This document shows, piece after piece, positions 2,815 to 22,000 of a stretch of DNA of 24,972 bases. The position numbers and the translations under genes are program-made. Each line of letters starts with the position of its first letter. Position 1 is the stretch's first letter. The notes beneath the pieces are model-generated. The model searched no databases. It was not told the DNA's origin and saw nothing but the letters and a program-made list of their open reading frames with translations. This DNA is from a virus, in IMG/VR virus record IMGVR_UViG_3300008267_000356, positions 1 through 24,972 of that record; one strand, 5' to 3'.

Positions 2815-3165
2815 ATGTCATTTAACTTAGAAAAGTATTTAGTCGAAAACAATCTTACTATTATCTCTAAAATAAGAGAGGAAGAAGAGGATGATTTAGA
2901 GCCGTCAGCAACAGATCTTAAACAGTCTGAAAAAGACTTTAGGAACATCGACAAAAAGAAAAAAGAATACGCAGATCTTCAAGCTAAAGTAAAAGCTATC
3001 ATTGCAAAACATACAGAAAAAGGACCTGATGGTAATCTTAAACTGAAAGATGTTGCTTCTTATAAAAGAGAAGTAGGCAATATCCCAGATAGACTTAAGC
3101 TTTTGAAAAAACAGATAGATCAAGTTGAAAATCCTAAACTAGACTCAGATGAAGAAGATATTTAG
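2815..3165 (+). CDS. Small coiled-coil protein with capsid-targeting-like leader
   Basis: A 116-aa, highly charged protein. Residues 3-20 read FNLEKYLVENNLTIISKI. This aligns with residues 5-22 of the 111-aa protein at 10019 (same F-N, L-x-E-N, L and S-K-I) although the rest of the two proteins differs. L-V-E at 9-11 matches the (L/I)xE rule of T4 prohead protease sites. After an acidic patch (EEEEDD) come long charged helices (about 40-75 and 90-112) likely to be coiled coil. The 3' end overlaps the next gene by 17 nt, so the two are translationally linked. Function is not known; an internal or core head protein is inferred from leader and position. Confidence 0.8.
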   Translation: MSFNLEKYLVENNLTIISKIREEEEDDLEPSATDLKQSEKDFRNIDKKKKEYADLQAKVKAIIAKHTEKGPDGNLKLKDVASYKREVGNIPDRLKLLKKQIDQVENPKLDSDEEDI

Positions 3166-3835
3166 TATTGGTCTAATTATACTCTTAGCGTTATTAGCTG
3201 TTTGGTATATGTTTATTTACAACCCAGGTAAGTTTGATACTAAACCTTTTGATGTTAAAATCGATTCTCTTCAGCACGAAGTTGACTCTTTATATGGAGA
3301 CAATTATAGACTAGAAACTTATGTTTCTTTTTTAGAAGATAACAATGTATATTTAATAGAGAAAACAGATAAGCTTCAATCTAGAATCGGTGATTTAAAA
3401 GATGATTTAAACGATGCTAAAGATGCTCTAAAGTATACTCCTACTCAAGTAGATAGTTTCTTTGTAACTAAATATAGTGATGAGTATACTAAGAAGTCTG
3501 AAGATACGACCCACCTACCATTAGAAGTAAGTAAAGCTGTAGTAGTAGATCTTAAAGAAGGTGAAGTGAATGCGAAAATAGTTGCTACACAAGATAGTGT
3601 TATTGTAACTATGGACTCTTCATTAAAGAATAGAGCTGAGGTGATTGCTAAATTAAGAGAGAAAGAAGTTAACTATGTATCTATTATCGATAAAAAAGTA
3701 CAGCAAGAAGAGTTGTACAAGGTACAAGTTAGTGGATTAAAACAAGATATAAAAAAGCAAGAAAAGAGACTTAAGTGGAATAGAATACAAAAGGTTGTAT
3801 TAGGTGCTGCGATAATAGGTCTCATCGTAAAATAA
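3149..3835 (+). CDS. Membrane-anchored coiled-coil protein, possibly spanin-like
   Basis: A 228-aa protein. Residues 4-24 are a strong hydrophobic segment (IFSIGLIILLALLAVWYMFI) behind Met-Lys-Lys, giving an N-terminal anchor with the bulk probably in the periplasm. Residues 38-100 and 165-212 are heptad-like charged coiled coils. The C-terminus ends in a basic patch (KKQEKRLKWNRIQK) and a second short hydrophobic stretch (VVLGAAIIGLIVK). There is no lipobox, so it is not an o-spanin by itself. N-terminal anchor plus coiled coil resembles inner-membrane spanins, which help fuse the membranes at lysis, but the C-terminal hydrophobic end is unusual for that class. An alternative is a membrane or vertex scaffold used in head assembly, given its place right before the terminase. 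It overlaps the upstream gene by 17 nt. Confidence 0.8.
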   Translation: MKKIFSIGLIILLALLAVWYMFIYNPGKFDTKPFDVKIDSLQHEVDSLYGDNYRLETYVSFLEDNNVYLIEKTDKLQSRIGDLKDDLNDAKDALKYTPTQVDSFFVTKYSDEYTKKSEDTTHLPLEVSKAVVVDLKEGEVNAKIVATQDSVIVTMDSSLKNRAEVIAKLREKEVNYVSIIDKKVQQEELYKVQVSGLKQDIKKQEKRLKWNRIQKVVLGAAIIGLIVK

Positions 3836-3836
3836 A

Positions 3837-5432
3837 ATGTCTGACGTACAAGCCAATATAAAAGAAAGAATAAAGGAGGAGTTTGTAAAGTGCGCCACGG
3901 ATCCAGTATACTTCATGAAGAAGTACTACATGATCCAGCACCCTCAAAGAGGTCGACAAATGTTCGACCTTTATCCATTTCAAGAGAAAGTACTTCGTTT
4001 ATTCCAAAAGCACGACTATTCAATTATTAATAAGTCAAGACAGCTAGGTATTTCTACACTTGTTTCTGCTTATTCATTATGGTTAATGTTATTTAATAAA
4101 GATAAGAATGTTCTTGTTATTGCAACTAAACAAGATACTGCCAAGAACATGGTAACTAAAGTAAGGTTTGCTTACCAAAACTTACCAACTTGGCTTAAGA
4201 TAGGAACATCAGAAGATAACAGACTTAGTCTTAGACTAGCTAATGGTTCACAAATAAAAGCTGTATCAGCCGCTGGTGATGCTGGTCGTTCTGAAGCTGT
4301 GTCTTTATTGGTAATAGATGAGGCTGCGTTTATTGATAATATTGAAACAATCTTTACTGCGGCTCAACAAACCTTGGCAACAGGTGGTGGTTGTGTAGCA
4401 TTATCAACTCCTAATGGTGTTGGTAACTGGTTTCACAAAACTTATTTATCTGCGCAGTCTCAAGAGAATAGATTCTTACCGATCTCTCTTCCTTGGTCCG
4501 TACACCCAGAACGTAATCAAGACTGGCGTGATGAACAAGACAGGATATTAGGTAAACGTAACGCAGCTCAGGAGTGTGATTGCGACTTTGCAACATCTGG
4601 TAATACAGTCATAGATCCAGAGATATTGAGTTGGTATGAGCAAAATATGCTTTCAGAACCAATAGAAAGGCGTGGTTTAGACAGAGCATTGTGGATATGG
4701 GAATATCCCGATCCAATGAAATACTATGCTGTGATTGCCGACGTAGCGCGTGGTGATGGTAGTGACTACTCTGCTTTCCATGTAATTGATATAGAATCGA
4801 TAACTCAAGTAGCAGAATATAAAGCACAAGTTGATACAAGAGACTATGCAAATACTCTTCTTAGTATAGCGTCAGAGTATAACAATGCATTATTAGTACC
4901 AGAGAACGCTAATATAGGTTGGGACGTTGTACAAACAATAGTTGAGAGGGGCTATAATAACCTCCACTATAGTTATAAACAGGACCAGAACATGGATTTT
5001 TCTAAATATGTAGATAAGTATAATAAAGCTGACGGTCTTGTTCCTGGCTTTAGTACTACTGAAAAGACTAGGCCATTAGCTGTTGAGAAGATGAGAGATG
5101 TGCTTGAGAATAAGATAGCTAATATAAAGTCAGTAAGGCTTTTAGAAGAGTTAAGGGTGTTTATATGGAAGAATGGTAAAGCACAAGCAATGCAAAGTTA
5201 TAATGATGATCTAGTTATGTCTTTTGCGATTGCTATGTATTTGAGAGAGACTAGTCTTAGATATAGAAAGAATGCTGAGAATTTAACTTATGCAGCATTG
5301 AATGGCTTTACTAGGACGCAAGATACTAGTGTAACTTATAATGCAAACAATCAATATAATCAAAACCCTTGGGTAATGAACTATAATACACCTCAAGGAG
5401 AGGTTAATCAGGATTTAACTTGGCTTTTATAA
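3837..5432 (+). CDS. 17: Terminase large subunit (T4 gp17-like)
   Basis: The DNA-packaging motor: an N-terminal ATPase drives DNA into the prohead through the portal and a C-terminal RNase H-like nuclease cuts the concatemer. In 531 aa one can see the P-loop region SRQLGIS (67-73), Walker B LLVIDEAAF (157-165, with D161 and E162) and coupling motif STPNG (190-194). Nuclease acidic residues fit D302 in IADVARGDGSDYSAF, E357 in VPENANIG and D457/D458 in YNDDLVMSFA. T4 gp17 (610 aa) has SRQLGKTT at the P-loop; here Ile replaces that Lys, so K66 or R68 may act instead, as in other terminases with altered Walker A motifs. The gene starts one base after the previous stop, with no SD, and is followed directly by the portal gene. 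Confidence 0.97.
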   Translation: MSDVQANIKERIKEEFVKCATDPVYFMKKYYMIQHPQRGRQMFDLYPFQEKVLRLFQKHDYSIINKSRQLGISTLVSAYSLWLMLFNKDKNVLVIATKQDTAKNMVTKVRFAYQNLPTWLKIGTSEDNRLSLRLANGSQIKAVSAAGDAGRSEAVSLLVIDEAAFIDNIETIFTAAQQTLATGGGCVALSTPNGVGNWFHKTYLSAQSQENRFLPISLPWSVHPERNQDWRDEQDRILGKRNAAQECDCDFATSGNTVIDPEILSWYEQNMLSEPIERRGLDRALWIWEYPDPMKYYAVIADVARGDGSDYSAFHVIDIESITQVAEYKAQVDTRDYANTLLSIASEYNNALLVPENANIGWDVVQTIVERGYNNLHYSYKQDQNMDFSKYVDKYNKADGLVPGFSTTEKTRPLAVEKMRDVLENKIANIKSVRLLEELRVFIWKNGKAQAMQSYNDDLVMSFAIAMYLRETSLRYRKNAENLTYAALNGFTRTQDTSVTYNANNQYNQNPWVMNYNTPQGEVNQDLTWLL

Positions 5433-5441
5433 AATAAAAAT

Positions 5442-7349
5442 ATGGCAGAACAACCAAAACAAAATAACTTATTCTCTACTCTAAGACGTTTGTTCTCTAC
5501 AGACGTTATCATTCGTAATGAAGGTGGAGATATGTTAAAAGTAATTGACACAGATACTATTCAAAGGTCTGGTGTCATTCAAACTAACTCATTAGTAGAC
5601 AGGTTCAATAAGGTATATACTACCTCTACAGCTTATGGTGTAAACCTTAACTTAGCACAGAACTATCAGTCTGCTAGGGTTCAGATATATGCAGACTATG
5701 ATGCTATGGATACTGATGCAATTTGTTGTTCGGCATTAGATATTATAGCAGATGAATGTACACTTAAAAACGAACAAGGTGAAGTATTACAAATTAGATC
5801 TTCTGACGAAAATATCCAGAAACTCCTCTACAACTTATTTTATTCTGTACTTAATATTGAATTTAATCTTTGGTCTTGGGTTAGGAATATGGCTAAGTAC
5901 GGAGACTTCTACCTCAAATTAGAGATAGCAGAAAAGTACGGTGTTTATAATGTTATTCCTTTCTCAGCCTATAATATTATTCGTGAAGAAGGATTCAACC
6001 CTGATAATCCTCAAGAGGTTAGGTTTAAATATGATCCTAATGCTACATTAGCATCTTCTACAGGATATAGTGGACAAAAGAATACTGATACTGGTATTTG
6101 GTTTGATAACTATGAGATGGCCCACTTCCGTTTAACTGGAGATGTTAACTATCTTCCTTATGGTAGGTCTTACTTAGAGCCTGCTCGTAAATTATTTAAG
6201 CAGTATGTATTGATTGAAGACGCGATGTTGATTCATCGTATTGTTAGAGCTCCTGAACGTAGGATCTTCTATGTAAACGTAGGAGCAATCCCTCCGGGTG
6301 AGGTTGATAACTATATGCAAAGGATGATTCAGAAAATGAAGAAGACTCCTTTGATTGATCCTAATACCGGTAACTATAACCTTAAATACAACCAGCAAAA
6401 CCTTTTAGAAGACTTCTTTATTCCTATGAGAGGTAATGATCAATCTACTAGGATTGATACTGCCAAAGGTCTTGATTATAATGGTATTGAAGACGTACAA
6501 TACTTCCGTGAGAAGTTGTTTGCGGCTCTTAAGATACCTAAAGCCTTCATGGGTTATGAGAAAGACTTAACTGGTAAAGCAACACTTGCCGCGGAAGACA
6601 TCAGGTTTGCCAGGACTATTGAAAGACTACAGAGAATCATTGTTAGTGAATTAACTAAAATAGCTTTAGTACATTTATATGCCCATGGATACACGAACGA
6701 ATCAGCCGCAAATTTTACGCTTTCTCTTACTAACCCTTCTATTATCTACGACCAAGAAAGAATTGCCTTGTTCAAAGAAAAAATAGACCTTGCCAAGCAA
6801 GCAATGGAAGGATCATTGTTACCAAGAGACTTTATCTATGACAAGATATTCCACTTCTCTGAAGATCAATATGCTGAGCTTGAAGATATGATTGTAGAAG
6901 ATAAGAAACGAGAGTTCAGATATGCACAGATTCAAGAAGAAGGAAACGATCCTGCTGAATCAGGTCAAGCATACGGTACACCTCACCAGATAGCAAGCTT
7001 GTATGGTGGTAAAGAAGACTCAATCTTGAATGTACCTTACGGATATGATGAGAAAAAACCAGGCCGTCCTAAGTCTGTAACCTCTATTATTGGTACCGAT
7101 AACTCTAGATTTGGTCGTGATCCTATCGGTCAAGCAGCATATTCTAAAAATGCAGAGAAAGGTGAAGATGATATGAAAGTAGATTATAAAGGAGGAAGCC
7201 CTTTAGCCTTAGAAAGTACTATGGGAGAGTTCTTAAAAAATAAGAGTTCTCTAGACAAAATGTTTAGCAAAAATCAATCAAGGAAAGTAAAGTTATTTGA
7301 GGAATCAGATCTTTTAAGTGAGAATAATATAATTGATGGTTTAGATTAA
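5442..7349 (+). CDS. 20: Portal vertex protein (T4 gp20-like)
   Basis: Forms the dodecameric portal ring that nucleates the prohead, passes DNA and joins the neck. The 635-aa product has the gp20 hallmarks: YADYDAMDTDAICCSALDII near 83-102, APERRIFYVNVGAIPPGEVD (270-289), DPNTG (306-310), the EDFFIPMRG tract (323-331), and YFREKLFAALKIPKAFMGYE (354-373) followed by LTGKATLAAEDIRFARTIER. It is about 110 aa longer than T4 gp20 (524 aa). The extra part is a C-terminal tail (roughly 500-635), rich in charged and Gly residues and ending FEESDLLSENNIIDGLD, which contains an L-S-E tripeptide. T4 genes 18 and 19 do not separate it from the terminase here. The start ATG follows AAAATAAAAAT and has no SD. 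Confidence 0.97.
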   Translation: MAEQPKQNNLFSTLRRLFSTDVIIRNEGGDMLKVIDTDTIQRSGVIQTNSLVDRFNKVYTTSTAYGVNLNLAQNYQSARVQIYADYDAMDTDAICCSALDIIADECTLKNEQGEVLQIRSSDENIQKLLYNLFYSVLNIEFNLWSWVRNMAKYGDFYLKLEIAEKYGVYNVIPFSAYNIIREEGFNPDNPQEVRFKYDPNATLASSTGYSGQKNTDTGIWFDNYEMAHFRLTGDVNYLPYGRSYLEPARKLFKQYVLIEDAMLIHRIVRAPERRIFYVNVGAIPPGEVDNYMQRMIQKMKKTPLIDPNTGNYNLKYNQQNLLEDFFIPMRGNDQSTRIDTAKGLDYNGIEDVQYFREKLFAALKIPKAFMGYEKDLTGKATLAAEDIRFARTIERLQRIIVSELTKIALVHLYAHGYTNESAANFTLSLTNPSIIYDQERIALFKEKIDLAKQAMEGSLLPRDFIYDKIFHFSEDQYAELEDMIVEDKKREFRYAQIQEEGNDPAESGQAYGTPHQIASLYGGKEDSILNVPYGYDEKKPGRPKSVTSIIGTDNSRFGRDPIGQAAYSKNAEKGEDDMKVDYKGGSPLALESTMGEFLKNKSSLDKMFSKNQSRKVKLFEESDLLSENNIIDGLD

Positions 7350-7357
7350 ATATTTAG

Positions 7358-7366
7358 ATATTTATT
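7358..7366 (+). promoter_or_regulatory. Recurrent intergenic motif ATATTTATT, copy 2
   Basis: ATATTTATT in the 41-nt gap between the portal stop and the next ATG (25 nt of spacing). A degenerate copy, ATATTTAG, lies just upstream at 7350-7357. Same family as the elements at 2791, 10498, 12219, 15136 and 18996. Confidence 0.4.
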
Positions 7367-7390
7367 ACTAGCGGACTTGTATAAAAAACT

Positions 7391-8242
7391 ATGGCAATAA
7401 AACATTCAAAATATCGCAACACCGGTATTTTATTCGAATTACTAGTTAGACAAACAACCTCTGACTTGATTAATAATCAAGACTCTAAGGCTGTTAAGAT
7501 CCTCAAGAAGTACTTTACTAATACAGAATTAGGTAAAGAATATAGCTTATATAATACCTTTGCAACTAGCACTAAGCTAAGCGAAGCTAAAGCTGAGATC
7601 TTAATATCTACGATTCTTGAACAGTATAGGAAGCTTGATTTTGAAAAGATCAATAAGTCAAAGTATAACTTGATCAAAGAGATTAAAAATACTTATGATT
7701 TAGACAACTTCTTCAAAGCTAAAGTAGAAAACTATAAACCATTTGCTTCAATCTATACCATATTTGAATCCCAGAACTCAGCTTCTGTTGATACAAAACA
7801 AGTCCTTTTAAATAAAATAACTCTCTTAGAACACCTTACTGATAGATCTCTTGACGATGCAAAAGCACCAAAGTCTATAGTACAGGAGTTTATGAAAGAA
7901 GATAAAGAGATCAGGCTTCTTGCTTATAAGATCCTTGTTGAGAAGTTTAACGACAAATACAAGGATATGTCTGATAGGCAAAAAGAAGTATTGAAAGAAT
8001 ACATTACAAATGTATCTGATACTAAAAACCTTAGAGAGTATCTAAATAACCAACTCGAATCTATTAAGACCGAGTTAATAGAATTAAAAAAGTCAACAAA
8101 AGACCCGGTTGTTAAAATTAAATTAGATGAGGTAGTTAAGTTCATCAAACCGATTAAAGAAAATCAATCGATTAAAGATGAAACAATAACTGGTATCCTC
8201 CAATATTGCGATTTAATTGATGAACTCAAACAAGGTCTCTAA
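7391..8242 (+). CDS. Conserved head-module protein of unknown function, downstream of portal
   Basis: A 283-aa, Lys- and Glu-rich, mostly helical protein. The N-terminus (HSKYRNTGILFELLVRQTTS, residues 5-24) and LKKYFTNTELGKEYSLYN (about 38-55) look like conserved signatures. From memory, similar proteins occur beside the portal gene in marine T4-like phages, without a known function. No catalytic motif, membrane segment or repeat is visible. Position suggests a role in prohead core or portal assembly, but this is inference. Its stop overlaps the next start (TAATG), so the two genes are translationally coupled. An ATATTTATT element lies upstream. Confidence 0.85.
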   Translation: MAIKHSKYRNTGILFELLVRQTTSDLINNQDSKAVKILKKYFTNTELGKEYSLYNTFATSTKLSEAKAEILISTILEQYRKLDFEKINKSKYNLIKEIKNTYDLDNFFKAKVENYKPFASIYTIFESQNSASVDTKQVLLNKITLLEHLTDRSLDDAKAPKSIVQEFMKEDKEIRLLAYKILVEKFNDKYKDMSDRQKEVLKEYITNVSDTKNLREYLNNQLESIKTELIELKKSTKDPVVKIKLDEVVKFIKPIKENQSIKDETITGILQYCDLIDELKQGL

Positions 8243-9705
8243 TGGATAAATTTAATACTCAGTTCGCTACACAAAAACTTCGCCAAGAAATGTCTGTTAC
8301 TGGAACAGGAGCTTCTTTTACTCCTGGAACTGGTGAACAAATGGCTACGAACAAAGCTTTCAAAAAGAAAACCAAAAAGGAAGTGAAAGATGTCGAACCA
8401 AAACTTGCAGCCGGTAAAGCCAAAGTCTACCCAAAAGAAAAGTGGGGATGGAAAGACGCTCCATCAATCCCTAATCGCCCTTCTAAGGGAGGTTTTATCT
8501 ATAAACAATTGTTCGAAGAGTTAAGTAAAGCTGTAAAAGAAGTTCAAGAAGGTTTGGAAGTTGATGATGTAGTTAAGGTGGTATACGGAAACCAATTTTA
8601 TGGTAAGATTGGAAAAGTAATGGATGTTAACCGTGGATTTGTGATTGTTGGCTTTATGTATGATGTAGATGGAGAGTACATAGATTGGGATGAAAGTCTT
8701 GAAGATGATCGTGAAATAGATGTTGAAGAATATAGTATGCATTCAAGCGATGTAGAAAAAATAGAAGGCGGAGATGGTCTAGATGAAATAGATGTTAACG
8801 ATCCTATCTTAATGGCAATGAGAGCTAAAAAAGATGCCCCAAAACCACAAGCATCACAATCACAAAAATCTAATCCAAATCAAGCTAAAATTAATATGCT
8901 TCTTAAAAAAAGAGCTGAGATTGAAAGAGATATGGAACAAGAAGCAGAACCAGAAGGAGGCCCTATAGCTGACAGATATGGTGATATGCTAAATAAAATT
9001 GACCGAGCTATTGCTAAATTAAAAGGTCAAGGTGAGTGGGGTCCTGAAACTAATCCATATATGGATAAAGGTGAGATAGAAAGAAGAGCCAGAATGATGA
9101 ATGAAGCAATTCATATTGGTACAGATACTAAGACTGATTCTGATATTTATTTTGAACCTTCAACAGGCACTTTTTCTATTAATGTAATTGATGCAGCTGG
9201 AAATAGAACAAATAAATTACAAGTTAATACTATTGATGATGTATTAGCTAAATTTCCAAACTGGAAATGGACAGAGCAAGGTAAAGCAGAGTTTTCTGAC
9301 GCTTTAAATGAGATTAAAATAGATTTAGATTTATCTGATAAAACATTAGAAAAATTAATTATGCTTCTTAAAGGGCAGATGAGTACAGAACGTAGTCTAA
9401 TTGCTAGTTTAGAAAGTGCATTAGGACGTGAAGTTGATCCGTTTCCTCATTTAAATGAAAACTATTCTAAATTCAAGAATGAGACAAAGACTAGAGGTAA
9501 ATCAGATCAATTCCATCAAGCAGTTAGAGAAGTAAGAAAGAAAGTCCTAGAGATAAATAAACTATTTGAATATGTAAGCCGCCTTAAAGGTGAACTATCT
9601 GAAGGTGAAGGTGGTCTTAAATATAAAATGCACACTGAAAAAACATTAGAAAAAATAAAAGAGATGGTTTCGGTTTTAAATCAAAACATTAAAAAGTTTA
9701 AATAA
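8242..9705 (+). CDS. Head-module protein with SH3/KOW-like segment and FTPGTGEQ motif
   Basis: A 487-aa multi-part protein of unknown function. Residues 21-33 read GTGASFTPGTGEQ; the octapeptide FTPGTGEQ also occurs at residues 77-84 of the major capsid protein, just after its likely cleavage site. Residues 40-52 are Lys-rich. Residues 105-138 (VDDVVKVVYGNQFYGKIGKV, then MDVNRGFVIVGF) look like a small KOW/SH3-type beta barrel. A block at 229-254 (RDMEQEAEPEGGPIADRYGD) stands out and, from memory, recurs in marine phage proteins. The C-terminal half (about 290-487) is helical and its codons look more A/T-rich, suggesting a later fusion. No enzyme motif is seen. The ATG overlaps the previous stop (TAATG). 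Confidence 0.85.
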   Translation: MDKFNTQFATQKLRQEMSVTGTGASFTPGTGEQMATNKAFKKKTKKEVKDVEPKLAAGKAKVYPKEKWGWKDAPSIPNRPSKGGFIYKQLFEELSKAVKEVQEGLEVDDVVKVVYGNQFYGKIGKVMDVNRGFVIVGFMYDVDGEYIDWDESLEDDREIDVEEYSMHSSDVEKIEGGDGLDEIDVNDPILMAMRAKKDAPKPQASQSQKSNPNQAKINMLLKKRAEIERDMEQEAEPEGGPIADRYGDMLNKIDRAIAKLKGQGEWGPETNPYMDKGEIERRARMMNEAIHIGTDTKTDSDIYFEPSTGTFSINVIDAAGNRTNKLQVNTIDDVLAKFPNWKWTEQGKAEFSDALNEIKIDLDLSDKTLEKLIMLLKGQMSTERSLIASLESALGREVDPFPHLNENYSKFKNETKTRGKSDQFHQAVREVRKKVLEINKLFEYVSRLKGELSEGEGGLKYKMHTEKTLEKIKEMVSVLNQNIKKFK

Positions 9706-9706
9706 A

Positions 9707-10015
9707 ATGAAAAACAAAAAACAACTTTTATCTGAAGAAGTTAAACAACTTCAAAAAATTGCTGGAATTAAAGAAGAAGGACATACGGGATCTCAATATG
9801 GTTTTTCTGAAGCTGTAGGTGTAGCGCCCGAGAAGGGGAAACCTTATCTAGTAAAAGGACCTCTTAAAAACGTTATTAGAGTAGAAGAGACTCTTGGAAT
9901 AATTGAATTTGTTTTAAATAAACTAGCAAATGATCCAAATAAAGAAACAAGAGCTTTAGCAAAACGTGCTATGGAGGCTCTTGAAGACACTATAACAATA
10001 CTAGACAATTTATAA
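9707..10015 (+). CDS. Small head-region protein with LSE leader and QKIAGIK motif
   Basis: A 102-aa protein of unknown function. The N-terminus KNKKQLLSEEVKQLQKIAGI (residues 2-21) is a predicted helix with L-S-E at 8-10, a possible prohead protease site. QKIAGIK closely matches the last seven residues of the scaffold protein (QKLAGIK). The rest is a small domain with a helical C-terminus (about 60-102). It lies one base after the previous stop and three before the next start, within a run of six unknown genes between portal and protease, the place where T4 has small core genes 67 and 68. A core or internal protein is the best guess. Confidence 0.8.
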   Translation: MKNKKQLLSEEVKQLQKIAGIKEEGHTGSQYGFSEAVGVAPEKGKPYLVKGPLKNVIRVEETLGIIEFVLNKLANDPNKETRALAKRAMEALEDTITILDNL

Positions 10016-10018
10016 ATA

Positions 10019-10354
10019 ATGAAAAACAATTTTAATTTCAAACAATTTTTGACTGAAAATAAGTTAGGCCCATATTCAAAAATTGCTGAAGCAGCAGGTA
10101 CAAAACAAGTATTTACAAACTATAATGAGTTTGCAAAAGCCTTATTCAGTACATATCCAGATGCTAGCGAATATGAAGAGGTAATCCATAATGGCCCAAC
10201 CGGTCCAGTTATGAAGTTAACTTATGGATATTCAAAAGGTATTCAAGCTATAGAATATGGTCAATGGGATCTAAATAGAGGTAAAGGATATGTAGTAACA
10301 TCACAAGGAGATGCATCAGACAATATATATCCTCAAGGTTCTAGTAGAGATTAA
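10019..10354 (+). CDS. Small head-region protein with LTE leader
   Basis: A 111-aa protein of unknown function. Residues 5-22, FNFKQFLTENKLGPYSKI, match the leader of the 116-aa protein at 2815 (nine of eighteen positions identical). They also resemble in outline the short leader of T4 internal proteins, which ends F-I-A-E. L-T-E at 11-13 is a textbook-like (L/I)xE site. The body (about 30-111) is a mixed alpha/beta domain with several aromatic residues (YNEFAKALFSTYP, GYSKGIQAIEYGQWD). If the leader is cut inside the prohead, the mature body would remain packaged. That is inference from the T4 model. Confidence 0.8.
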   Translation: MKNNFNFKQFLTENKLGPYSKIAEAAGTKQVFTNYNEFAKALFSTYPDASEYEEVIHNGPTGPVMKLTYGYSKGIQAIEYGQWDLNRGKGYVVTSQGDASDNIYPQGSSRD

Positions 10355-10509: not shown

Positions 10510-11550
10510 ATGACAACACTTGAATTATATCGTAAGCATAAGGCTGGAGAAGTTGGCCGTGATAGGTTTCTCTATGAAGTTCGTAGAGACAAAAATCTTC
10601 CTTGGGTAACTAATATTACATCCTATGATGATGCTGTAAAGATCCTTAAGAATAAGGGTATTATCAGTGAAGCTGACGCTAATATAGCGACTGCCCCAGA
10701 AGTTGATAGAGTAAATCCTTACTTTTTAAAGAAAGGAGTACAGAAGTTGTTGTCAAAAGAAGAAGAGCTTACTAACGATTCATATATTAAAGCACTTAAT
10801 AAAGCCGCTAAGCAACTACATAAGAATCCTCACGCATTTGACAAAGATATGTTTGCAAATGTAGATGATGTAGATAAGGCTGATGCTAAACTTGAAACTC
10901 AAGAAGTTAAGAAGGCTAATCATAAAGATAAGGCTAACGAGATGAAAAAGGTAAAGGTTAAAGCTCTTAAAGAGACTGCCTTAAAAGCCCTTACTGATTC
11001 TCTTAAAAAAAAAGACCAAATTAACGAAGACTCCCACTGGAAATACCATGTAGGGTCAGAAGTACAAACACCAGATGGTCCTGGTAAAGTAACAGAAATT
11101 ATTGGTAGCACCTTTACTGTTGAAATGGAAGATGGCTCACTAAGAGATTATCAGACCAATACAGTACATCATTTTACTGAAAAAGAAAAGGAAGAAGAAC
11201 CTATTCAACAATCCCAAACAGAACCTTCTGTAAAAGATATGTGGGCTAACTGGGATAAAGAAAAACATAAGACCTTTGGTGGCATGGTAGTAGATCCTGG
11301 ATATCAATCTGATTTGGATAAAAAATATGGCAAATTAAAAGAATATATAGCCAAAAATAAGCACGATAAAGAAAAGATGGGAAAGTTAAAAAAGGCTATT
11401 AAAGAAAAGGTAGATGCTATCAAAGGTAAAAATACTACAACAGGAGAAGAAGAACTACTTGCAATAGTACCTGGGGGACAAGGAACTAAAACCGCACAGG
11501 CTTTAAAAGCAAAAGGAGCAACTTCTGTAATTGTTAAATCTATTGCATAA
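10510..11550 (+). CDS. Conserved head-module protein upstream of the prohead protease, SH3-like segment
   Basis: A 346-aa protein of unknown function. The N-terminus (LYRKHKAGEVGRDRFLYEVR at 6-25, then NLPWVTNITSYDDAVKILKN) is a distinctive block that I recall from marine T4-like phages next to the head genes. It contains L-Y-E (21-23) and ends near I-S-E|A (52-55). Residues 68-81 (VNPYFLKKGVQKLL) form another short block. The middle (about 85-170) is charged and helical. Residues 178-222 (KYHVGSEVQTPDGPGKVTEI and on) resemble a small SH3/KOW barrel, as in the 487-aa neighbour. The C-terminal 80 residues are Lys/Gly-rich. Its stop overlaps the protease start (TAATG), tying it to prohead maturation by position. 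Confidence 0.85.
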   Translation: MTTLELYRKHKAGEVGRDRFLYEVRRDKNLPWVTNITSYDDAVKILKNKGIISEADANIATAPEVDRVNPYFLKKGVQKLLSKEEELTNDSYIKALNKAAKQLHKNPHAFDKDMFANVDDVDKADAKLETQEVKKANHKDKANEMKKVKVKALKETALKALTDSLKKKDQINEDSHWKYHVGSEVQTPDGPGKVTEIIGSTFTVEMEDGSLRDYQTNTVHHFTEKEKEEEPIQQSQTEPSVKDMWANWDKEKHKTFGGMVVDPGYQSDLDKKYGKLKEYIAKNKHDKEKMGKLKKAIKEKVDAIKGKNTTTGEEELLAIVPGGQGTKTAQALKAKGATSVIVKSIA

Positions 11551-12179
11551 TGTCAAAACAACTCTTAATAGAATATAGTGCTTTCCAACCGCTTCCTCAA
11601 TCATTAACTGAGGCGAAAAGGCTTTCTAATGGTAACATGGTAGTATCTGGTTTAGTACAAGCTTGTGATAAGCCTAATGCTAATAGAAGGATATACCCAT
11701 ATCAGACTTTATTTGAGCAAGTTACTAAATATATAGCAGGACCAATTGCTGAGAATAGAGCTTTAGGAGAGTTAGATCATCCTGAGTCTAGCATTATTAA
11801 CCTTAAGAATGTTAGCCATAATATAGTTAATCTTTATTGGAATGGTAAAGATTTGTATGGTGACATTGAAATACTACCAACTCCATCGGGTAATATATTA
11901 AGACAGTTGTTTGCCAACAATATTACTGTAGGCATATCTTCAAGAGCTATGGGCTCTGTTACTCCTATTGGTGAAGGTTTAGTACAAGTAGAAGATGATC
12001 TTGACCTTATTTGCTGGGATTTTGTATCAACACCATCAACTTACGGTGCATATATGAAGCCAGTTGGAGGTTTAAGAGAGTCTGTAGATCATACGATTGC
12101 TAGACCAACAAGCAGAGTTAATCAACTTATTTCTGATATTATTTGTTCACAGTCAGGAGTTTGCTGTTTAAATAAATAA
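11550..12179 (+). CDS. 21: Prohead core protease (T4 gp21-like)
   Basis: Serine protease that digests the scaffold and trims head proteins before DNA packaging. The 209 aa compare with 212 in T4. The family's conserved sites are visible: GELDHPESS with H77, and TVGISSRAMGSV with S130/S131, one of which should be the nucleophile of this herpes-assemblin-type fold. WDFVSTPST (156-164) is another family block. The N-terminus has two possible self-cleavage sites, L-I-E (6-8) and L-T-E|A (19-22); self-processing is known for T4 gp21. The C-terminal tail is Cys-rich (ICSQSGVCCLNK), which is odd for a phage protease of this type. It is followed by the longest regulatory-looking gap of the head region. 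Confidence 0.95.
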   Translation: MSKQLLIEYSAFQPLPQSLTEAKRLSNGNMVVSGLVQACDKPNANRRIYPYQTLFEQVTKYIAGPIAENRALGELDHPESSIINLKNVSHNIVNLYWNGKDLYGDIEILPTPSGNILRQLFANNITVGISSRAMGSVTPIGEGLVQVEDDLDLICWDFVSTPSTYGAYMKPVGGLRESVDHTIARPTSRVNQLISDIICSQSGVCCLNK

Positions 12180-12317: not shown

Positions 12318-13379
12318 ATGAGCAATCTTTATCAAGATGCTATTCTTGATGCTAAAGCTTTAAGAGCTAGTGCTATGGCTAACGCTAAAGCCGCTCTTGA
12401 AGAAGCTTTCGAACCTAAGATTCAAGAGATGCTTCGCCTTAAACTCTCAGAAGAGTTAGATGAGGTTGAAGAAATCGAAGAAGTCGAAGTAGAAGAAGCA
12501 GTGCATCCAGAAATGCAAGACGAAAATGTTGGTGGAGTAGATGAAAATCTCGATATCAACGAAGCAGAGTTAGAAGAAATTCTTTCTCAACTCGAAGAGC
12601 TCTCTAATGTTGGCGAAGCTGATCATATGAAAGATGAAGCTTACGGCCATAAAGAAGAGGCTATTAACGAAGCTGAGGAAGAAGGCGAAGAAGATGAAGA
12701 AGAAGATGAAGTTGAAGGTGATGATGACGTAATGGCAGGTGAAGAAGAAGTGGTTGATGATGAAACTAAAGTGATCGATATTACTTTAGGTGATCTCAAA
12801 CAAGTTCTCCAATCTGTAATGGCTGGTGGTCAACAAGACTTAGGTCTTGCTGGTGACGAAGCTGGTGCTGATTCTGAAGCTGAAGCTGAAATTTCTCTTG
12901 ATGAAATCCTAGCCGAACTTGAAGCTGAAAATGAATCAGTTCAAGACGTAATGAGTTCCCCAGGCTCTTCTCCAGAAGGAAATATTCCTGAAATGGAAGA
13001 GGCTAAGAAGCATGACAAAAAGAAAGATGCAGTAGAAGATGAGCTTGAAGAAGCTAAAGCTACTATTGAAACTCTCCGTCAAGGTCTTCAAGAGGTTAAC
13101 TTGCTTAACGCAAAGTATCTCTACATGAACAAGTTGTTTAAATCTAAGACTTTAACTGAGTCTCAAAAAGTAAAAGTAATTAACGCTCTTGATCGTGCTG
13201 CATCTGTAGCAGAAGTTAAGAACACCTATGAAACTTTGAAAGAGTCTTTTGAAGCTAAAAAGCAACTTAAAGAATCAATTGGTTTTGCTTCACAATCAGC
13301 TGGTGTAGCTCCTAAACAATCTATTATTGAACAAGATAATATGATGAGTAGGTGGCAAAAGCTTGCTGGTATCAAATAA
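12318..13379 (+). CDS. 22: Prohead core scaffold protein (T4 gp22-like)
   Basis: Forms the inner core around which the capsid protein assembles and is later digested by the protease. The 353 aa are extremely acidic between about 43 and 150 (runs of Glu/Asp) and helical throughout. The C-terminal third carries the gp22 signature LTESQKVKVINAL (279-291), next to LQEVNLLNAKYLYMNKLF (257-274), comparable to the LTESQK region of T4 gp22 (269 aa). Several L-x-E/I-x-E tripeptides fit its role as protease substrate. It ends SRWQKLAGIK, a motif shared with the 102-aa protein at 9707. It is about 80 aa longer than T4 gp22; the extra acidic stretch may replace the acidic T4 gp67 (inference). The start lies behind two leader hairpins and has no SD. 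Confidence 0.92.
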   Translation: MSNLYQDAILDAKALRASAMANAKAALEEAFEPKIQEMLRLKLSEELDEVEEIEEVEVEEAVHPEMQDENVGGVDENLDINEAELEEILSQLEELSNVGEADHMKDEAYGHKEEAINEAEEEGEEDEEEDEVEGDDDVMAGEEEVVDDETKVIDITLGDLKQVLQSVMAGGQQDLGLAGDEAGADSEAEAEISLDEILAELEAENESVQDVMSSPGSSPEGNIPEMEEAKKHDKKKDAVEDELEEAKATIETLRQGLQEVNLLNAKYLYMNKLFKSKTLTESQKVKVINALDRAASVAEVKNTYETLKESFEAKKQLKESIGFASQSAGVAPKQSIIEQDNMMSRWQKLAGIK

Positions 13380-13398: not shown

Positions 13399-15069
13399 AT
13401 GGCAAATTTAGTTCAATCCCTTTTGGCTGAATCCGCTGGTACTGCATTCTCTGATCAACATGGTGTTGCTCAGCGTCTTGCTAAGAAGTGGGGTAAGTCA
13501 GGCCTTCTCGAGGGCTTACATGATTACGACGCCAACAACATGGCCGTAATTCTCGAAAACCAAGCTAAACAGCTTGTAGTTGAATCTTCTACTACTAACG
13601 GTAATGCAAACTCTGGTGGTGCTACCTTTACCCCTGGTACTGGTGAGCAATGGGCTGGTGTAGCTCTTCCTTTGGTACGTAAGATCTTTGGTCAAATCGC
13701 TGCTAAAGAATTCGTTTCTGTACAGCCGATGAATCTTCCTGCTGGCTTGGTATTCTATCTTGACTTCCAGTATGGTAATACCAAGAATCCTTTCACCTCT
13801 GGTGATTCTCTTTATGGTACTCCAAGTGCTAACTTTGGTAACCTTGCAGCTGGCGCTCTTTATGGTGCTGGTAAGTTTGGTTATTCTTTGAACCAGTTCA
13901 GCGCTTCTTTCTCTTCTTCTTTGTCTGGATTCCTTTCTTCATCTGCAACTTTTGTTGATGTTGATTTTAGTTCTGACTATTCCGCTTCTATTGTAGCTTC
14001 AGGCTTAACTAAGCTTCAAGTTCCAACGTCTTCTTTGACTACTCCAAATCTTGATGGCGTTCGCGCTTTCATCATCACTGGTCCTAGCTTGACTTCTGCT
14101 GATAACTTACAACAATTTACTGCATTATCATCTAGCGCAGCTGGTGTATATGTAAACTTTGTAGTTAATAAAGCTGCTGTTGCTGCTACTGGTGGTAGTG
14201 CAAACTTCGTTGTATATTACAACAAAGCTACAGACTTCAATAGTCGTGGTGACTTCGAAGACAGGTCTGGTAACCCATCTGTTCCTAACAGTCTTTCTTC
14301 AACTTCTATCGTTATCCCTGAGATCAACGTACAAATGAAGAGCCAAACCATTTCTGCTAAAACTCGTAAGTTAAAAGCACAATGGACTCCAGAATTTGCA
14401 CAAGACTTGAATGCATACCATTCTCTTGATGCAGAAGCTGAATTGACCGGTCTTCTTTCTGAGCACATCTCTCTTGAGATCGACCTCGAAATCCTTGACA
14501 TGTTAATCCAAAATGCTCCAACCATTGAGTATTGGTCTGCTAAAGTTGGTAACCAAATCAACTCTACAAACACTGGATTTACTAGCAATACTGCTGGCGT
14601 TTATTACACTCAAATGAGCTGGTTCCAGACTTTGGGTATCAAACTCCAAAAAGTTTCTAATATCATCCATCAGCGTACCCTCCGTGGCGGTGCAAACTTC
14701 ATGGTAGTATCTCCTTCTGTAGCTACTATCCTTGAGTCTATCCCAGGATTTGCTGCTGATACCGATGGTGCAGCTGACACAATGAAGTATGCTTTTGGCG
14801 TACAAAAGATTGGTCAGTTGAACAGCCGTTACAAGGTTTACAAAAACCCTTACATGCTTGAGAATGTGATTCTCCTCGGTTTCCGTGGTAATCAATTCCT
14901 TGAGTGTGGCGCTGTTTACTCTCCATATGTTCCATTGATCATGACTCCATTAGTGTACGATCCAAATACCTTCACTCCAAGAAAAGGTATCATGACTCGT
15001 TACGCAATGACTATGGTACGTCCTGAATACTATGGCTTGGTAGTAGTATCTGATTTGAACGTAGTGTAA
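13399..15069 (+). CDS. 23: Major capsid protein (T4 gp23-like)
   Basis: HK97-fold hexamer subunit of the head, 556 aa against 521 in T4. ATG 13399 is chosen over the in-frame ATG at 13363 because the latter lies inside the scaffold gene, and MANLVQSLLAESAG is a typical start for this family. The N-terminal 62 residues look like the T4 propeptide: ILENQ (51-55) parallels FENQ in T4, and V-V-E62|S fits cleavage near T4 E65. The mature start continues to GGATFTPGTGEQWAG (73-87). Conserved blocks include KIFGQIAAKEFVSVQPMN and, near 427-450, RTLRGGANFMVVSPSVATIL. Residues about 160-300 are Ser/Thr/Ala-rich and look like an inserted surface domain. Codons are richer in C/G-ending forms than in neighbours, as expected for high expression. 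A terminator follows. Confidence 0.96.
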   Translation: MANLVQSLLAESAGTAFSDQHGVAQRLAKKWGKSGLLEGLHDYDANNMAVILENQAKQLVVESSTTNGNANSGGATFTPGTGEQWAGVALPLVRKIFGQIAAKEFVSVQPMNLPAGLVFYLDFQYGNTKNPFTSGDSLYGTPSANFGNLAAGALYGAGKFGYSLNQFSASFSSSLSGFLSSSATFVDVDFSSDYSASIVASGLTKLQVPTSSLTTPNLDGVRAFIITGPSLTSADNLQQFTALSSSAAGVYVNFVVNKAAVAATGGSANFVVYYNKATDFNSRGDFEDRSGNPSVPNSLSSTSIVIPEINVQMKSQTISAKTRKLKAQWTPEFAQDLNAYHSLDAEAELTGLLSEHISLEIDLEILDMLIQNAPTIEYWSAKVGNQINSTNTGFTSNTAGVYYTQMSWFQTLGIKLQKVSNIIHQRTLRGGANFMVVSPSVATILESIPGFAADTDGAADTMKYAFGVQKIGQLNSRYKVYKNPYMLENVILLGFRGNQFLECGAVYSPYVPLIMTPLVYDPNTFTPRKGIMTRYAMTMVRPEYYGLVVVSDLNVV

Positions 15070-19055: not shown

Positions 19056-22000
19056 ATGTCTAACCAATTTTTAAAGCTGCGCCGTTCAGCGGTGCCAGGT
19101 AAGGTTCCTACTACATCCTCACTAGAGTTTGGAGAAATAGCCTTAAATACATTTGATGGGTTAGCATTCATAAAAAAGTCTGGTTCTAATGGTGAAGAGA
19201 TTGTTACAATAGGTAACACTACAGGCGCATTTACAGGATCTTTTTCTGGTTCTTTTATTGGTAATTTACAAGGTACTGCTAGTTGGGCAATTAATGCAAT
19301 AACAGCATCCTATGCTTTAAATGCAGGTACAGGGAATGTTAGCGGTTCACAATATTATGTTGCCGTATTTAGTGGAAGTAGTTCTGTAACAACGGGTTCT
19401 ATATATGATTCAGGATCTTTTACAGCAATAGGAGCAACATCATCAATTCATATAGATGCACCTGAAAGATTTTTAGTAGAAGCAGGAGAAACTGATTCAT
19501 ATAATTTAATATCAGGCCATGGATCTATAAATAATTATATCCAATTAAATGTAAAGAATTTTAGTTCTGGAATAACCGCATCTTCTGATATAGTAGCTAC
19601 TAATAATATTGGTGATGAAGAAAGTTACTTCATCAATATGGGTATTAATGGAGACGGTTACAATATAGATGGAGGAATTGGGAGCCAAAACGATGCTTAC
19701 TTATATTCAACCGGTGAAAACCTATTAATAGGTAATGCTTCCGAAGGCAAATCTGTTATACTATTTAATGGCACAGGATCAGCAATAGAAAATGCTCGCG
19801 TATTTATAAATCCTGGAGGAACAGTAGGTATAAATACAAGTGATACAAATATATCTAATCCTGAATCTTTATTAGTTGAACCGTTAACTACTTCTCCAAC
19901 TCAATTTAATAATCTTATTATAGGTAGAGGTATAATTAATGAAAGCTATTTACAGTTTAATTTAATTAATAGAGGAACGGGTTCGTATGCATCAGCAGAT
20001 ATTGTTGCTTCAAATGATGCTTCAACTGAAGTACTTAATTATATTGATATGGGTATTAATGCAAGTACTCATATATTTGATCCTAGTTTTGCTCCTGGTA
20101 CTGGTAATGATACTTATTTGTTGTCTACTGGTAAAAATTTATTAATAGGTAGTGCTACATCTGGTAGCTTAATATTATGGACTAGTACAGACTTTAATAA
20201 CGAACAAAGCGCTAAATTAATTTTAAAATATAACAATCAACATGAAATAAGTGGTTCTATAAATGTTAGTGGTAGTATTTTTAATCCACTTATTACTCAA
20301 AATAATTCATTATCTGGGTCATTAGTTGCTGTAAATCCATCAACCGGTCTTTTCCAATATACAAATACAGCAGCAACTGCCTCCTCAGCAGATGATTTTA
20401 CAGTAAGAGGAACTCTTATAGCACAAACAATTCATGCTCAAACAATTACATCTTCTACTGAATATATAACTGGATCAACTATATTTGGTTCTTTATTAAC
20501 AGATATTCATCAGTTTACTGGATCAGTGGATATAACTGGTTCTTTAATTATAAACGGCACCTCCTATACTGCTGCTACATCTGGTACTTCAGGTACTGCT
20601 GGTTCATCAGGAACCACAGGAAGTTCTGGCTCGTCAGGTACTAGTGGAAGTACTGGGACATCAGGTAGTGCAGGAAGTAGTGGAACCACAGGAAGTTCTG
20701 GCTCGTCAGGTACTAGTGGAAGTACTGGGACATCAGGTAGTGCAGGAAGTAGTGGTAGTGCTGGCTCTGCAGGTAGTTCAGGAACTGCTGGTTCATCTGG
20801 AACTGCCGGGTCTTCCGGAAGTAGTGGATCCACTGGGACATCAGGATCTTCTGGTAGCACAGGTTCATCAGGAACAAGCGGAAGCACCGGTACCTCAGGC
20901 ACTGCTGGTAGTTCTGGTACTGCAGGAAGTTCTGGTACAACAGGCTCATCTGGTAGTGCTGGTACAGCAGGAACATCTGGTTCTGCTGGCACAGCAGGAA
21001 GCTCTGGTAGTACTGGCACATCAGGTACTAGTGGAAGCTCAGGTACTGCAGGTAGTTCTGGAACAGCTGGCTCAAGTGGAACAGCTGGCACAGCAGGAAG
21101 CTCTGGTAGTACTGGCTCGTCAGGTACTACAGGTTCTAGTGGAAGTGCTGGATCTTCTGGTAGCGCAGGCACTGCTGGTAGTTCTGGTACGGCAGGAAGT
21201 AGCGGAACTACAGGAACCTCTGGTAGTACTGGCACAGCTGGCACATCTGGAACAGCTGGCACGGCAGGAAGCTCTGGTAGTACTGGCACATCTGGAACAG
21301 CTGGCACAGCAGGAAGCTCTGGTACTGCGGGTAGTTCTGGAAGTAGCGGCACTACTGGAACTAGCGGAACCTCAGGCTCATCAGGAAGTAGCGGTAGTGC
21401 GGGTACATCTGGTAGTGCTGGTTCTAGTGGAACTGGATTTAATACTATTAGTAATCCTGCAGTAGGAAGAGTTTTATTATCTGATGGTACAGTTAATGCT
21501 GCAACAGCTGAAACAAATCTAAACTTTTTAAATAATACTTTATATGTAACTGGAAGTATTATAACTAATGGTTCAATTACAGCGCAGACTTTAATTGTTC
21601 AAGATATTACTTCTTCAAGAGAATATATAACAGGATCTACTATATTTGGTAGCTTATTAACAGATACTCATCAATTTACAGGTTCAGTTAGTATAACTGG
21701 CTCTTTAAGGCTCTCTACTCCGACTTACAATACTTCTAGCATAAATGTATTAACTTACAATACAGCAAGTAGTACAGTAGAATACAGTACAATCAACGAC
21801 TTGATGTTTACCAAAAACGTTGTTACTGTAGGTCTACCTGGAAGTTTAAATGTTGATTTTAATTCTGTTAAAGCAGCTGTTGATAGTATTACTGATGCTA
21901 CATCCACAAATACATACACAGTAAGAGTACACGCTGGTTTATATAATGAAGATCAAATTCGACTAAAATCGTTTGTTGCTGTAGTAGGTGACAGTTCTGA

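Follow-up and report, generated by a model that had tools for sequence, protein, structure and literature searches.

The virus record IMGVR_UViG_3300008267_000356 of IMG/VR, analysed over its full 24,972 bases (the window), holds a T4-like head operon in which two genes, at positions 2815 and 10019, encode proteins that have the same N-terminal leader (class A) and otherwise unrelated bodies. With a probability of about 0.84, as judged from sequence, this leader functions as a capsid-targeting propeptide of a T4-like (far-T4) lineage, by which proteins would be packaged into the prohead and subsequently be cleaved. The original prediction of a portable address tag for prohead cargo is supported by the N-terminal location of the leader on many unrelated bodies, protease-type sites at its end, a gp21-type protease gene, occupation of head-operon slots, and exchange for a second tag that resembles the scaffold protein (class B).

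The first protein (116 residues; 2815-3165, plus strand), encoded upstream of open reading frame (ORF) 3149 and the terminase gene, consists of the leader FNLEKYLVENNLTIISKIRE (2821-2880, plus strand), which starts at F3 and contains LVE (ending at 2847) and IRE (ending at 2880), and a helical body. The second protein (111 residues; 10019-10354, plus strand) combines the leader FNFKQFLTENKLGPYSKIAE (10031-10090, plus strand), starting at F5 and containing LTE (ending at 10057) and IAE (ending at 10090), with an alpha/beta body. The ungapped match between FNLEKYLVENNLTIISKI and FNFKQFLTENKLGPYSKI that had been noted before was reproduced, with nine of 18 residues in common, and the bodies are as unlike as had been claimed, since the BLASTP alignment pairs residues 3-22 with 5-24 (E = 2e-4) and includes no part of the bodies. 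The location given for the leader was right, but its end had been placed too early (10084), as the element spans about 20 residues up to a second [LI]-x-E (10090). Because nine of the 18 residues are the same while only three of these nine have the identical codon (29 of 54 nucleotides alike), the likeness resides at the protein level. A best pair of nine in 18 was reached once in 300 shuffles of all N-termini of the window, and judged from the window by itself the match is suggestive. Conservation of the leader in relatives is stronger evidence: a 12-column profile derived from many phages gives both window leaders 30.6 bits and reaches no more than -1.4 bits elsewhere in the proteins of the window. 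The portal C-terminus (…LLSENNII) and the capsid-protein propeptide (…ILENQAKQL), considered as models that the class A tag might have copied, were rejected on the basis of these low scores.

Structure models of modest confidence (mean predicted local distance difference test score, pLDDT, of 69 and 62) suggest a mainly helical fold with one small hairpin for the 2815 product and an alpha/beta fold for the 10019 product, each with a short N-terminal helix followed by a stretch with pLDDT below 50. Protein searches of viral contigs revealed no relatives of the 10019 body, and a fold search of its model against the PDB gave no match at E<=0.001; one relative of the protein, in locus L114 (45% identity), was found solely via the leader.

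IMG/VR was scanned for both tags, and the resulting counts are lower bounds from a non-random sample. A degenerate DNA pattern for leader residues 1-12 matched in at least 119 stretches, and collection of leader-bearing proteins, as the original prediction had proposed, yielded at least 171 distinct copies with the consensus M-x-N-F-[DN]-L-K-K-[FY]-L-x-E-N-[KN]-L…[LI]-x-E. Their bodies, stripped of the first 26 residues, fall into at least 73 clusters at E<1e-2, the largest families having 47, 18 and 11 members; since clustering rests on sequence, some of the 73 may merge by structure. Absence of the leader from relatives, which had been named as evidence against the prediction, is thus not what was found: other phages carry the same leader on many other bodies. 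A profile search of the fetched loci gave 172 hits of at least 15 bits, separated by a clean gap from the rest, 171 of which have a start codon nearby; five of 176 leader-profile hits lack the exact motif. An in-frame start codon lies 1-4 codons upstream in all 88 pattern matches of the stored loci, some of these copies (in L117, L123, L142, and L146) being internal to longer frames, and the reversed pattern had no match in 12 records. Genes with the strict pattern are grouped, with four in Flavobacterium phage immuto (MW353175), which has class B as well, seven in the 64-kilobase record G017, and four in a row in record G011. Immuto is the only cultured phage species with a class A leader in the collection searched, and tblastn of the leader against phages returned immuto records only and no T4. 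Among bacterial genomes, the pattern matched 13 contigs, one of which (L247, a metagenome-assembled contig of an uncultured bacterium) encodes a true leader, in a two-leader protein; the other 12 were judged to be chance matches.

The first L-x-E of the leader occupies positions 7-9, and the second [LI]-x-E begins at position 12, 13, 18, 19 or 20 in most leaders. This second site, which was absent from the search pattern, is present within positions 12-23 in 148 of 170 copies, compared with 10-20 of about 147-169 (6-12%) in each of six downstream windows of equal length; counted once per body cluster, it occurs in 63 of 73, versus 5-9 downstream. Conservation stops at this site, and in the family of the 2815 protein a two-residue insertion moves the site (from IRE to LFE) while it is retained. 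Because conservation ends there and the site survives shifts in spacing, it is the better candidate for cleavage, and the cut would most likely fall at the second [LI]-x-E, behind IRE and IAE in the window, rather than behind LVE and LTE as had been proposed. The presumed cutter is a gp21-type prohead protease (Peptidase_S77; 11550-12179, plus strand), which aligns with T4 gp21 (29% identity, E = 1e-18). An S77 protease was found in 11 of the 12 records searched, and in nine of ten leader-bearing records by the strict pattern, or 10 of 11 when the weaker leader of G002 is included (G001 and G002 being the two records without a strict match). Moreover, the gp23-type major capsid protein (13399-15069, plus strand) is expected, from its position relative to T4 gp23, to lose its propeptide behind QLVVE (ending at 13584), and capsid proteins of the lineage retain QLV[VT]E or a close form ([LIV]-x-E) at this place, followed by a Gly-rich linker, so that the same hydrophobic-x-Glu rule would be expected of the lineage's protease.

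The class B tag has the consensus x-Q-x-L-A-G-I-I-x-E and is represented in the window by the leader MKNKKQLLSEEVKQLQKIAGIKEE of a 102-residue protein (9707-10015, plus strand; core QLQKIAGIKE at 9746-9775). It resembles the C-terminal peptide of the gp22-type scaffold candidate (12318-13379, plus strand), SRWQKLAGIK at 13347-13376. In the fetched loci, the pattern MQxLAGII matched no fewer than 121 distinct places, 69 of them C-terminal (61 in the scaffold family) and 44 near the N-termini of other frames, and 117 of 119 distinct scaffold C-termini have a LAGI-like end. The class B core matches the scaffold C-terminus of its own lineage, as seen in the window (RWQKLAGIK in the scaffold versus QLQKIAGIKEE in the tag) and in immuto (RWQKLAGIIK versus RMQKLAGIITE); strict residue-by-residue co-variation of scaffold end and tag was not seen, and the C-terminus of T4 gp22 has no LAGI-like end. 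All 39 N-terminal cases with a body have an E two residues past LAGII, a residue that was not part of the search pattern, versus a scaffold C-terminus that mostly ends in I or K. In L264, L266, L327, and L341, C-termini reading MQKLAGIIK or MQKLAGIITE... were encountered outside the detected scaffold family; these are perhaps C-terminally tagged cargo or diverged scaffolds.

When class A and class B bodies were clustered together at E<1e-4, at least 139 clusters were obtained, of which 81 have class A only, 51 class B only, and seven both. Homologous bodies behind different tags align at 36-56%, for example L098 (A) and L285 (B), with bodies 42% identical, immuto 179 (A, L086) and L362 (B), at 36%, and L121 (A) and L343 (B), at 56%. 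Moreover, genes of both classes occupy the same slots of the head operon, i.e., behind the homologue of the window's 8242 gene, before the terminase gene, and behind the protease gene; in the window, 9707 (B) adjoins 10019 (A) in the slot behind 8242, and 2815 (A) lies upstream of the terminase gene. Swapping and common slots are the strongest evidence that both tags do the same job, which the match of class B with the scaffold end ties to head assembly.

Other possible tags were observed. A leader of the type MKKSELVKLIKEEL, or MKLLxLLxEAK, precedes bodies homologous to class A bodies (L095:2316; L212:3022; L237:2436, minus strand; L086:7; also in L001, L134, and L146) and is a possible further tag class. 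The N-terminus of the 8242 product (8242-8340, plus strand) reads KLRQE followed by GASFTPGTGEQ, resembling what follows the expected cleavage site of the capsid protein, so that G-A-[ST]-F-T-P-G-T-G-E-Q follows an E in both proteins (KLRQE and QLVVE, the latter within 13399-13650). In L039, a homologue of the 8242 product carries a class B tag (MKTEVKHLQKLAGILKE) in place of this segment, which may represent a third tag resembling the capsid protein.

L117, L123, L142, L146, L226, and L247 each have one frame with two leaders, separated by about 330-420 residues. An LxE (LQE or LAE) closely precedes the internal leader in L117, L146, and L226, and in L146 and L226 such motifs lie on both sides of it, where cuts would free two bodies. 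The internal leader of L226 directly follows ALQE (…VEALQEGFFDLRKFLAENKL…SRMLSENG) and has no preceding Met, and therefore an internal translation start cannot account for it. Related to these polyproteins is a 340-residue frame in L112 (at 3182, minus strand) with a leader fragment (EGFDLRKFLAENRK) at its C-terminus, representing either a decayed fusion or a C-terminal tag. The immuto protein immuto26A_194 (117631-118632 of MW353175) is homologous to the first half of the polyproteins and begins with a class A leader, yet it is annotated as a cob(I)alamin adenosyltransferase; this annotation is doubtful, and PHROGs gave no match for one of the polyproteins (L146).

The arrangement of these sites also bears on the alternative that the leader anchors its proteins on a component of the head and stays uncleaved, with [LI]-x-E forming part of a binding helix. 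The first LxE does lie inside the most conserved stretch, as would befit a binding residue. Nevertheless, an anchor of this kind is improbable in view of the second site, which closes the leader at variable spacing in most body clusters, of the polyproteins in which LxE flanks the internal leader on both sides, and of the E that invariably follows the N-terminal class B peptide, as opposed to the I or K at the scaffold end, which has nothing behind it to free.

Alternatively, the leader could send proteins elsewhere, such as to the host membrane, the nucleoid, or a secretion or degradation route, or could be a conserved element of the mRNA that acts at translation start. The many tagged genes outside the head operon, and the diversity of bodies, as anticipated for early-made host-takeover proteins, fit such a destination. 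Against this, the tag is interchangeable with a copy of the scaffold's C-terminal end, closes with a prohead-protease motif, and is borne by two genes within the head operon of the window. The conserved leader residues are encoded by varying synonymous codons, which points to selection on the protein, and the tag recurs inside polyproteins, once without a start codon. This explanation is consequently considered very improbable. The least probable alternative, in which the tagged proteins are diverged paralogues of one fast-evolving family that remain alike at the N-terminus only, draws on the large size of some body families and on the tendency of short, fast-evolving proteins to lose detectable similarity, but is hard to reconcile with 73 clusters at E<1e-2, with the prediction that the two window bodies fold differently, with the occurrence of an HD domain and a P-loop kinase signature under the same tag, and with unrelated tags A and B on homologous bodies.

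The tagged bodies mostly measure 85-200 residues, and Pfam and PHROGs searches mostly gave no match for function. Exceptions with a domain signature are an HD domain (L186:364-945) and a weak P-loop kinase signature (L137:202-1041), the proteins concerned being candidate enzymes carried in the head.

In the mechanism that we infer for the capsid-targeting propeptide, the first 12 residues or so (F-[DN]-L-K-K-[FY]-L-x-E-N-[KN]-L), as a short amphipathic helix, would dock the protein on the assembling scaffold core or the inner coat surface, whereupon the docked protein would be enclosed in the prohead. The S77 (gp21-type) protease would then cut behind [LI]-x-E, most likely at the second site at the leader end, and the freed body would remain with the DNA, presumably to enter the next host by ejection. 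As for modularity, several genes of one phage bear the tag, homologous bodies have class B (scaffold C-terminal peptide plus I-x-E) in its place, and in some phages two tagged proteins are built into one polyprotein.

Several results weigh against the reading as a capsid-targeting propeptide. The median isoelectric point of 77 bodies is 4.7, where basic cargo had been looked for by analogy with the T4 internal proteins (9.0-9.7); the tag as such does not require basic cargo, which characterises the three T4 proteins, and the mostly acidic cargo speaks against a role in condensing DNA. Of 177 tagged genes, only 45 have a known head gene within 600 base pairs on their own strand, many others being in other islands; this low figure is partly accounted for by the fact that only 95 of the 177 are on loci holding any head gene. 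The invariance of the first LxE is partly due to ascertainment, as the search itself demanded E9 and, for the most part, L7. No S77 protease was found in the leader-bearing record G016 (75 kilobases), which may be a fragment. Ten residues are too few to show homology with the T4 tag, and neither virion proteomics nor N-terminal sequencing was found for phages with the tag.

The principle of such targeting is known from T4, in which ten residues of the capsid-targeting sequence (CTS) suffice, with positions 4 and 7 involved in targeting and positions 8 and 10 in cutting, and foreign proteins have been carried into the head by this means; an E-to-D change at the T4 site abolishes cleavage while leaving targeting intact (PMC9026906). 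The T4 internal proteins are diverse defence proteins joined solely by the CTS (PMC3012670). The CTS of IPI, IPII, and IPIII likewise is a short N-terminal propeptide with aromatic or hydrophobic anchors on unrelated bodies (PMC9026906, PMC3012670), ends in hydrophobic-x-Glu cut by a gp21-type protease, and precedes cargo whose genes vary between phages. The T4 proteins start with MKTYQEFIAE (ipII and ipIII) or MKTFKEF…TITE (ipI), and by eye L3-K-K-[FY]6-L7-x-E9 of class A is similar in pattern to Y-Q-E-F-I-A-E (Y4..F7-I8-A-E10). In contrast, class A is longer and of a different sequence (FDLKKFLVENKL...LxE compared with MKTYQEFIAE), has two LxE sites, and is found on many more bodies, with acidic instead of basic cargo, a second tag equivalent to the scaffold C-terminus, and two-tag polyproteins. 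Class B is comparable to the coat-binding C-terminal helix-turn-helix of the P22 scaffold gp8 (PMC9962691) in being the C-terminal end of its own lineage's scaffold, and by this analogy may bind coat protein, but it heads natural cargo proteins as an N-terminal peptide and is followed by a protease site. T4 Alt, P1 Dar, and the SPN3US ejection proteins are also packaged in the head for delivery to the host and are sometimes cut by the prohead protease; in the sections consulted of the corresponding reports (PMC5512222, PMC7411985), a comparable short tag common to such proteins is not described. What is new here are the tag families, their scale, the scaffold-like tag, and tag swapping; the tag peptides are not printed in the literature searched, which excluded preprints.

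The remaining head genes of the window include the terminase gene (TerL; 3837) and the portal gene (5442). Its closest cultured phages are the Flavobacterium immuto phages, with DNA-level likeness limited to part of the capsid gene, and far-T4 phages and immuto have a similar T4-like head gene set (PMC4360716, PMC7198788; MW353175). The lineage was filed as far-T4 by inference, from its T4-like head genes and its immuto and gp21 affinities rather than from a tree; the far-T4 paper does not mention prohead, protease or internal proteins. A reading frame of 1972 residues (19056-24971), open at the window end and containing two collagen-like G-S/T/A-S/T/A repeat stretches, probably encodes a tail fibre, and the out-of-frame ORFs over these repeats were dismissed as artefacts.

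Taken further, the data favour, somewhat above even odds, a general system by which Bacteroidetes far-T4 phages would load cargo through two or more interchangeable tags, one of them copied from the C-terminal docking peptide of the scaffold with a protease site added. Well over 100 families of proteins that are anonymous but for the tag, some of them fused into polyproteins, would be loaded into the head, released by the prohead protease, and injected as hidden effectors. If so, a tag of 20 residues would name, from sequence, which anonymous genes of a widespread uncultured group are virion-carried and host-delivered, and dozens of 'hypothetical proteins' would become candidate injected anti-defence or takeover proteins, as is T4 IPI. 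It would also suggest that a tag originated by copying the docking end of the scaffold, and would offer a testable signal by which Bacteroidetes phages load cargo.

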